This document shows, piece by piece, positions 53,452-56,336 of a stretch of 64,000 nucleotides of DNA. The notes beneath the pieces are model-generated. The model made no database searches and had not been told where the DNA came from. It was given only the letters and a program-made list of their open reading frames with translations. Numbering within the stretch: the stretch's first letter is position 1; each line of letters begins with the position of its first letter. Source of the stretch: Natrinema salifodinae. Lineage in GTDB: Archaea; Halobacteriota; Halobacteria; Halobacteriales; Natrialbaceae. The stretch lies in assembly GCF_900110455.1 (NCBI RefSeq), contig NZ_FOIS01000004.1, forward strand, positions 62,001 to 126,000, written 5' to 3'. The translations under genes were made by a program, and so were the position numbers.

Positions 53452-54942
53452 TCAGTCCTCGCCAGGCGCGATCGGCTCGGGATCGGGCTCGGCTGCCGAT
53501 CGGGTCGTCGACCCGGCGGCGTCCGCGGGGGCTCGATCCGCGAACGCGATCTGCCACCCGGTCACGCCCATGAGGAGGAGGATAACTGGCGACAGAAGGC
53601 CGAAGAAGTAGTACGGCGCGTACGACAGCGTAGCGACGTTGAGCGTCCCGGCCATGAACAGGCCGCCGCTCGACCAGGGGACGAGCGCGGAGGTCGTCGT
53701 CCCGGAGGCTTCGACGGCGCGCGAGAGGTTCTCGCTCTTCAGCCCCTGCTCGTGGTAGAGGTTCCGGAGGGACATCCCGGGAACGACGATGCTGATGTAC
53801 TGCTCGGCGGCGAGCACGTTCATCGAGACCGACGAGAGCACCGTCACGCCGGTGAGACTCGCTACACCGCGGCTCAGCCGGCCGAGGTGGTGCGCGAGGA
53901 CGGCGAGTACACCCGCGCGCTCGAGCAGGCCGCCGAGCGAGAGCGCAGCCATCGCGATCGTCACGATCCACGCCCCGCCGAGGAGCCCGTCGCTCGCGAG
54001 CAGTTCGTCGACCAGTTCCATCCCGGTCTCGGGACTGGTTCCCGACTGCGCGATGGACCAGGCCGCGGCGAACCCAGTCCCCTGGACGAGCATCGACGTC
54101 AGCACGCCCGCGAACACGCCCGCGCCGAGAGCGGGAAGCGGCGAAACGCCGTAGATCGCGAGGCCGAACGTGAGCACGAGCGGAAGGAAGACCAGCGGGC
54201 TCACGGCGTAGGTGCCCTCGATGGCGCCCTGGATCTCCGCGATCCGTCCGGCGGGGACGGCGCCGCCGGCCCGCAGGCCGAGGACGGCGTACAGGACGAC
54301 CGAGAGGCCGAACGCGACGGCCGTCCCGGCGCGCATCGCGTTGATGTGATCGTAGAGGTCGGTGTTGCTCACGGCGGCGGCGAGGTTCGTCGTGTCCGAC
54401 AGCGGCGACTGCTTGTCGCCCGCGTAGGCGCCGGTCAGGACCGCCCCGGCCGTCATCGGCGCGGGGACGCCGAGCCCGGACCCGATGCCGATGAAGGCGA
54501 CGCCGAGCGTTCCCGCCGTGGTCCACGACGAGCCGACGGCGAAGCTGACGACCGCGGCGAGGATCGCAGTCGCCGGCAGGAACACCGACGGCGAGAGGAG
54601 TTCCAGCCCGTAGTACATTAGACTCGGAATCGTCCCGGCCGAGACCCACGTCGCGATGAGCGCGTAGACGACGAACATGATGAGCAGCACCCGCATCCCC
54701 ATCAGGAGGCTGTCCGTCATGCCGTCGTAGAGTTCGTCCCAGGAAAGCCCGAGATGGTATCGAGCGAACAGCCCGGTGAACCCGATCCCCCAGACGAGCG
54801 GGAACTGCGGGTCCAGTTCGAACGCGACGATCCCGACGCACAGGAAGAGCAACATCGCCGCGATGGGAACGAGCGCCGTCCCGAGCGACGGCCGCTCGTC
54901 GGGGTCGAGCTCCTCGAACAATCGGGGCTCGAACGCTACCAT
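53452..54942 (-). CDS. nhaC: Na+/H+ antiporter, NhaC family
   Basis: 496 aa with about eleven to twelve membrane helices. NhaC parts seen: LMYYGLELLSPSVFLPATAI, VSFAVGSSWTTAGTLGVAF (the conserved Ser-Ser-Trp-Thr-Thr-Ala) and GDKQSPLSDTTNLAA (the charged re-entrant part). The C-terminus is acidic and cytoplasmic. NhaC exports sodium in exchange for protons and is typical of alkaliphiles and halophiles. The N-terminus (MVAFEPRLFEELDPDE) is polar. It is divergent from cetZ across 260 bases. Confidence 0.93.
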   Translation of the reverse strand: MVAFEPRLFEELDPDERPSLGTALVPIAAMLLFLCVGIVAFELDPQFPLVWGIGFTGLFARYHLGLSWDELYDGMTDSLLMGMRVLLIMFVVYALIATWVSAGTIPSLMYYGLELLSPSVFLPATAILAAVVSFAVGSSWTTAGTLGVAFIGIGSGLGVPAPMTAGAVLTGAYAGDKQSPLSDTTNLAAAVSNTDLYDHINAMRAGTAVAFGLSVVLYAVLGLRAGGAVPAGRIAEIQGAIEGTYAVSPLVFLPLVLTFGLAIYGVSPLPALGAGVFAGVLTSMLVQGTGFAAAWSIAQSGTSPETGMELVDELLASDGLLGGAWIVTIAMAALSLGGLLERAGVLAVLAHHLGRLSRGVASLTGVTVLSSVSMNVLAAEQYISIVVPGMSLRNLYHEQGLKSENLSRAVEASGTTTSALVPWSSGGLFMAGTLNVATLSYAPYYFFGLLSPVILLLMGVTGWQIAFADRAPADAAGSTTRSAAEPDPEPIAPGED

Positions 54943-55202: not shown

Positions 55203-56336
55203 ATGAAAGTCGCCCTGATCGGCGTCGGCCAGGCCGGCGGCAAGATCACCGAACGGCTCGCCAGGTTCGACGCGGAAATGGACTTCGGTGCCGTCCAAGG
55301 TGCGCTGGCGGTCAACTCCGCGGAGCCCGACCTCCAATCGCTCGAGTTCGTCGACACGCAACTGATCGGCGCCGACCGCGTCAACGGTCACGGCGTCGGC
55401 GGCGACAACGAACTCGGCACGGAAGTGATGCAGGCCGACGTCGAGCAGGTGCTGGACGCGTTCGACGGCCGCGTCACCTCCCGCGCCGAGGCGATCTTCG
55501 TCGTCGCCGGGCTCGGCGGGGGGACTGGCTCGGGCGGCGCGCCCGTGCTCGTCCACCACCTCCAGCAGGTCTACGATGTCCCCGTCTACGCTCTCGGCGT
55601 GCTGCCCGGGCGCAATGAGGGGGCGCTCTACCAGGCCAACGCCGGTCGGTCGCTGAAGACGCTCCTCCGGGAGGCCGACGCGACGCTACTGATCGACAAC
55701 GACGCCTGGCACGAACAGGGCGAGAGCATCGAGGGCGCCTTCGAGCGGATCAACGAGCGGATCGCCAAGCGCGTGGGCCTGCTGTTCGCGGCCGGCGAGG
55801 CCGTCGACGGGGTCGGCGAAAGTAGCGTGACGTCGAAGACGTCACGAACGAGAGGCGGCGCAGCCGCCGCTAGCGTAGTGGACTCGAGCGAGGTCATCAA
55901 CACCCTCCGCGCGGGCGGGGTCGCGGCGCTGGGCTACGCCACCGAGATCGCGAGCGAGGACAGCGGCGAGAACATCCGGACGGCGATGACCGTCTCCCGC
56001 CAGGCGCTGCTGACGGGGACGAGCCTGCCCGACGCGACGACGGCCGAGGCGGCGCTGCTGGTCGTCGCCGGGAACCCGGAGGCGATCCCGCGCAAGGGCG
56101 TCGAGAAGGCCCGTAGCTGGCTCGAGGACGAGACCGGGAGCATGCAGGTCCGCGGCGGAGACTTCCCGCTGGACAGCGACCGCCTCGGTGCGCTGGTGTT
56201 GCTCGGCGGCGCGGAGCGGTCCGACCGGATCCGGGCGTTCATGGAGCGCGCGAAGGAAGCGAAGGAGGCACAGGAGACGGAATCGACGGATCCCGCCGCG
56301 GCGCTGACCGACGACCGGCTCGAGGACCTCCTCTGA
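55203..56336 (+). CDS. cetZ: tubulin-like protein CetZ with an in-frame palindromic insertion
   Basis: 377 aa. CetZ is the archaeal FtsZ/tubulin-type GTPase that controls cell shape. The start KVALIGVGQAGGKITERL and the tubulin signature AGLGGGTGSGGAPVLV near residue 100 are normal. Residues 208-223 (VTSKTSRTRGGAAAAS) are an insertion: in relatives VDGVGES is followed directly by VVDSSEVINTL. The matching DNA 55823-55870 is 48 bases (16 codons) bounded by TAGCGT repeats. The C-terminus is acidic. CetZ type (1 or 2) is not clear. It is probably followed by a GH2-like gene 43 bases later. Confidence 0.95.
   Translation: MKVALIGVGQAGGKITERLARFDAEMDFGAVQGALAVNSAEPDLQSLEFVDTQLIGADRVNGHGVGGDNELGTEVMQADVEQVLDAFDGRVTSRAEAIFVVAGLGGGTGSGGAPVLVHHLQQVYDVPVYALGVLPGRNEGALYQANAGRSLKTLLREADATLLIDNDAWHEQGESIEGAFERINERIAKRVGLLFAAGEAVDGVGESSVTSKTSRTRGGAAAASVVDSSEVINTLRAGGVAALGYATEIASEDSGENIRTAMTVSRQALLTGTSLPDATTAEAALLVVAGNPEAIPRKGVEKARSWLEDETGSMQVRGGDFPLDSDRLGALVLLGGAERSDRIRAFMERAKEAKEAQETESTDPAAALTDDRLEDLL
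55823..55876. mobile_element. palindromic element inserted in frame in cetZ (two hairpins, TAGCGT direct repeats)
   Basis: The direct repeat TAGCGT (55823-55828 and 55871-55876) bounds 48 bases of insert plus one copy. Inside are CGTGACGTC/GACGTCACG (55826-55834 and 55838-55846, 3-base loop) and GGCGGC/GCCGCC (55854-55859 and 55863-55868, 3-base loop). Deleting one unit restores the CetZ sequence expected from relatives. The length is a multiple of three, so the frame is kept. This resembles the small palindromic elements found in genes of Rickettsia, by analogy only. I do not see a second copy in the window. Confidence 0.7.

Follow-up and report, generated by a model that had tools for sequence, protein, structure and literature searches.

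The cetZ2 gene of Natrinema salifodinae carries an in-frame insertion that we interpret, with a probability of about 0.85, as a member of a family of non-autonomous mobile modules, each very small and composed of two adjacent hairpins, which we call haloarchaeal coding palindromic elements. Members measure 45-51 nt, are dispersed through Halobacteriales and, as far as tested, are confined to Halobacteria. Their stems are kept paired through compensatory changes, and separate lineages have acquired the module independently, in some cases at an identical codon boundary.

The insertion in cetZ2

The host gene is a 377-aa ORF at 55203-56336 on the plus strand of the window, that is, the whole 64,000-nt stretch of DNA that was analysed. 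The closest solved structure to its product is PDB 4b45 (E = 1.6e-134), the CetZ2 of H. volcanii (PMC9856176), and the alignment contains one 17-residue gap. Comparison with orthologues placed a 51-nt in-frame insertion at 55821-55871 of the plus strand, whose limits can be shifted by one codon (55824-55874 fits equally well), adding 17 residues between the GVGES and VVDSSE segments of CetZ2. The 48 bases and 16 residues of the original prediction are corrected accordingly, whereas its claim that removal of the insert gives back the family sequence was borne out, including for the H. volcanii protein. In both the orthologue and 4b45 alignments VVDSSE (55875-55892, plus strand) directly follows the insert, and by homology alone we take this segment to correspond, within the tubulin/FtsZ fold, to the region of the T7 (synergy) loop. 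The insertion site tolerates additions, since in a more distant genome (G041, locus L051) this CetZ2 loop holds an insert that is comparable in size but unrelated. A single-sequence AlphaFold model of the window CetZ2 gave a mean pLDDT of 36, too low for placing the loop. Upstream of cetZ2, a 496-aa ORF on the minus strand (53452-54942) resembles a membrane transporter.

Both hairpins described from the cetZ stretch beforehand were recovered on the plus strand. Hairpin 1, CGTGACGTC-GAA-GACGTCACG, occupies 55826-55846 with a perfect 9-bp stem and a GAA loop; hairpin 2, GGCGGC-GCA-GCCGCC, occupies 55854-55868 with a perfect 6-bp stem and a GCA loop. They lie within a 46-nt core at 55824-55869 (plus strand; 75.1 bits, E = 2.1e-15), defined as the portion that covariance models match in other genes and species. 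The insert folds at -27.4 kcal/mol as RNA (z = -3.9) and at -18.9 as DNA (z = -5.2), and no shuffled sequence equalled either value. The TAGCGT repeats said to bound it are indeed present at both ends (55823-55828 and 55871-55876), but do not reflect a general target-site duplication: the right-hand repeat of the cetZ2 copy in G028 reads TAGTGT, and the two ends of 124 copies match no better than shuffled ends (45, 34 and 43 of 500 shuffles scored at least as high for 3, 6 and 9 nt, respectively).

The insert is missing from 28 of 30 aligned CetZ2 orthologues, being present only in the window and in one Natrinema relative, G028. A DNA search of 392 Halobacteriales genomes revealed a third carrier in Haloterrigena (G321), and the cetZ2 genes of G000 (the window's genome), G028 and G321 are the only ones with the insert in that set. 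Close relatives thus include both filled and empty sites, and the outcome named in advance as refuting, in which all relatives would be filled with unrelated sequence, did not occur. Neither the cetZ copy nor the non-coding copies of the module reached the gathering score of any Rfam family, and a PDB search with the insert peptide returned nothing. In CetZ2 the insert is most likely a translated and tolerated loop, although translation is inferred only from the frame and no function has been shown.

A family dispersed through Halobacteriales

A plain nucleotide search of the window's own genome, as the original prediction had proposed, found no other close copy and only chance matches to one hairpin. 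The family became detectable through searches across genomes and covariance models: a DNA search across genomes picked up further genes containing full-length copies of this architecture, and the refined model described below gave five matches in the window's own genome, one of them in an acyl-CoA ligase gene (L188). A covariance model of the two hairpins (R1), built from four full-length copies, identified full-length relatives in 262 of 392 Halobacteriales genomes at E <= 0.01, so that the possibility of no other copies existing anywhere was not realised; a reversed-sequence control model matched in 17 of 392. Refinement on 92 copies afforded model R2, which at E <= 1e-4 gave 137 matches in 12 genomes versus 0 for the reversed model in the same genomes, a sharper control than that for R1 because R1 and its reversed model differ in build.

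In a sample of 247 genomes from the phylum, every genome that R2 matched belonged to Halobacteriales. Similarly, a strict exact pattern run over 84,980 species found 12 stretches, all 12 in Halobacteria. The exact-pattern scan and plasmid records placed copies in Natrinema, Natronorubrum, Natribaculum, Halorussus, Halobacterium, Halobellus, Haloterrigena and Halorientalis. A search of viral contigs for the module found nothing, and one of phage records gave only an irrelevant match in a Xanthomonas phage.

Strand and phase, scored by codon-position GC content, were sense and phase 0 for 89 of the 92 best copies; on recheck the copy at L122 was also sense and phase 0, raising the count to 90 of 92, while L120 encodes the same peptide in a broken frame and L061 is a non-coding copy. 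The host proteins, comprising 50 clusters and three rechecked ones (more than 50 host genes), are unrelated and conserved. They include isoleucyl-tRNA ligase (ileS), methionyl-tRNA ligase (metG), DNA topoisomerase I (topA), biotin carboxylase (accC), urocanate hydratase (hutU), CobN (cobN), SufD (sufD), an IGHMBP2-type helicase, MoeA, type II GAPDH, methionine synthase and thioredoxin reductase. Coding copies fall into one subtype of about 48 nt with the consensus SVASETQRxGGGEAAD and another of about 45 nt, SVASETQRADGEAVD. That the insert-bearing proteins are translated and retain activity is inferred from frame and gene conservation alone. One module copy, recognised by eye near 1501-1543 of locus L186 (G331), lies in an ORF resembling ribosomal protein uL6.

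Six-frame translation of 124 coding copies showed a mean charge of -1.4 and no stops (0/124) for the frame in use, against mean charges of -0.01 to +4.8 and stops in up to 43 of 124 copies for the five unused frames; the antisense frame closest to neutral is more hydrophobic than the one used. Since the used frame alone is both clearly acidic and stop-free, and the proteome is as a rule acidic, selection suffices to explain the single-frame, sense-strand bias. Consistent with selection, dispersed non-coding repeats of G158 contain the module in either orientation with respect to one set of conserved motifs. Asp or Glu immediately precedes the insert in 85 of 124 copies versus a 20% background, although the formal significance of this preference is overstated because copies at one site are not independent.

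In 78 distinct copies, 99.5% of cells were standard pairs, and both stems together contained 197 double-change cells compared with 51.5 in shuffles. Sliding the partners abolished this covariation, and one-sided changes were almost absent. Compensated changes were also found inside single sites (4 pairs in topA, 4 in ileS and 5 in the helicase). The pairing percentage is biased upward somewhat, as copies were gathered with models that reward this structure.

Mobility and competing explanations

The cetZ2 inserts of G000 and G321, which belong to two genera, show 0 differences in 51 positions, whereas 75 of 194 fourfold sites outside them (39%) differ. A recombination tract that could have brought the insert between these genomes was looked for without success, identity in the flanks not being raised, and in the cetZ2 tree G000, G028 and G321 occupy three separate places among empty relatives. 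In accC, inserts follow VED at the same codon boundary in G017 (48-nt type) and G028 (45-nt type, reading GAC-[45 nt ending GAC]-GGC), and the 14 other Natrinema copies read are empty. We conclude that there has been repeated gain with a site preference, with the enzyme and chemistry inferred only. Additionally, an identical 43-nt core is found in three genes of a single genome, G195 (L218, L219 and L220). Copies in metG and topA carry site-specific sequence signatures, and those in metG share a distinctive stem, which points to site-bound inheritance for some sites; part of the distribution has probably been inherited rather than newly inserted. No mobilising enzyme or autonomous copy was identified, in the absence of a systematic transposase search, and ORFs beside one non-coding hairpin array contained no transposase domain.

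The strong stems, preserved by compensation, would also be expected of a regulatory RNA hairpin kept for tuning cetZ2 expression or translation, as the original prediction had offered as one option, and a sense-strand bias would fit an RNA role. This reading finds no support in a module that is shared by more than 50 unrelated genes and missing from nearly all cetZ2 genes; copies in both orientations in the non-coding repeats of G158 and a bias already accounted for by one acidic, stop-free frame likewise make it improbable. Shared occupancy of accC, ileS, topA and metG sites across families, with the distinctive metG stem, could instead point to an ancestral loop that most lineages lost, its hairpins under selection and without any mobility. 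Such a history would demand many precise losses, and conflicts with the identity of the cetZ insert across two genera despite the divergence of fourfold sites outside it, with two subtypes at the accC site in one genus and with identical cores in different genes of one genome, leaving it quite improbable.

A further rival is removal before or during translation, in the manner of an archaeal intron or of the translational bypass elements found in Magnusiomyces mitochondria; such elements likewise form hairpins within genes. Bypassed palindromic elements are known (cited in PMC6649704). An element removed in this way would need neither a fixed phase nor an absence of stops, yet 90 of 92 copies share one phase and 0 of 124 contain a stop, so that we consider removal very improbable. 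Quasi-palindromes also arise by template switching, and a local mutation of this type in cetZ could have made the hairpins without any mobile element. Occurrence of the same 46-nt architecture and spacing in unrelated genes and families refutes this origin, to which we attach next to no weight; correction of the same type could help to keep the stems perfect, and remains possible as a process that maintains pairing.

Returning to the mobile two-hairpin module, we infer that it is DNA that would be inserted, probably by way of hairpins that are exposed as single strands and recognised by a trans-acting enzyme. Most insertions would presumably be purged by selection, with the gene-borne survivors being those read in the only acidic, stop-free frame and located behind an Asp or Glu codon in loops that tolerate them. 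In CetZ2 the outcome would be a flexible 17-residue loop adjoining the T7 region, translated and probably neutral or mildly modifying. A bolder formulation, which we put forward only tentatively and regard as rather doubtful, is that of a minimal homing-like element: about 48 nt in length and without an enzyme of its own, it would be mobilised in trans via single-strand hairpins, enter one and the same codon boundary of conserved genes many times over, in independent events across genera and families, and impose linked amino-acid pairs on its hosts, since each stem codes for both halves of the loop.

Known palindromic elements and non-coding copies

The nearest precedent is the Rickettsia palindromic element (RPE; Ogata et al. 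2000, 2002), which likewise places palindromic repeats in frame in many unrelated conserved genes with a conserved encoded peptide, and which additionally occurs in RNA genes and intergenic sequence. RPEs measure 105-146 bp and form long stem-loops (PMC2229807), whereas the haloarchaeal module has 45-51 nt and two short, separate hairpins and was found only in Halobacteria. Furthermore, RPEs are reported to lose repeat identity (PMC6649704), in contrast to haloarchaeal stems that stay perfect via compensatory change. Membership in the RPE family itself was rejected on size and the lack of a long stem-loop, but three features of an RPE-like kind are present, namely in-frame insertion, several unrelated genes and empty sites in close relatives (cetZ2 and accC). 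In-frame copies in more than 50 host genes, empty sites and covariation support the proposal that Haloarchaea possess a Rickettsia-like palindromic element able to invade genes and to persist there as a loop of the protein.

Palindromic repetitive elements fused in frame into protein genes have also been described in Methanocaldococcus jannaschii (Suyama et al. 2005, cited in PMC2996958 and PMC2229807). As cited, they concern a single methanogen species, and among the sampled genomes R2 matched none from outside Halobacteriales. The palindromic repeats of Wolbachia (Ogata et al. 2005) are likewise protein-coding and differ as a family of a bacterial endosymbiont, again as judged from citation. 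In the open-licence literature no paper on the encoded peptide was found, and the RPE, Wolbachia and M. jannaschii elements were the sole precedents; prior publication in a subscription journal is not excluded. As far as searched, the module represents a new family of a known kind, protein-coding palindromes.

Short hairpins also characterise REP/BIME sequences and the palindromes of IS200/IS605-type elements (Y1 transposases), for which single-strand recognition in trans is possible. Those elements are typically intergenic, and the preference for an Asp/Glu codon is all that is established of a target motif for the haloarchaeal module. MITEs, which are non-autonomous haloarchaeal repeats, occur in Haloquadratum and Halobacterium (cited in PMC10969869). 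MITEs have terminal inverted repeats and usually target duplications, while no duplication was detected for the module, and membership was rejected on that ground by the end-match test. Membership among translational bypass elements or introns was similarly rejected on the fixed phase and 0/124 stops. Another haloarchaeal RNA insertion is the 108-nt insertion in Halococcus 5S rRNA (PMC7530397).

Previously, coding palindromes had been described only in a small number of intracellular bacteria and in a single methanogen. The kind now extends across an order of free-living archaea, some species of which are genetically tractable, with stems kept perfect and with activity recent enough for filled and empty sites to coexist within one genus. 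How such elements move, why conserved enzymes tolerate them and whether proteins gain loops from them become testable questions. The family also accounts for unusual insertions in enzymes of haloarchaea, by which annotation, alignment and indel-based phylogeny could be led astray.

Non-coding repeats several hundred nt long are dispersed between genes at loci of G158 (L206-L213, L181, L190 and L193) and of G303 (L200-L205). They carry CCAAAGCCCCAGCC and CCCTTTGAGTCC as conserved boxes, which in places recur every 57-63 nt next to TTTATAA boxes, contain the two-hairpin module in either orientation and have no Rfam match, and possibly represent an undescribed RNA or promoter array. Loci L228 and L239 contain, near positions 1010-1120, non-coding hairpin arrays resembling tandem module copies, with a repeat unit of hairpin 1, a GCAG linker, hairpin 2 and CGAC.
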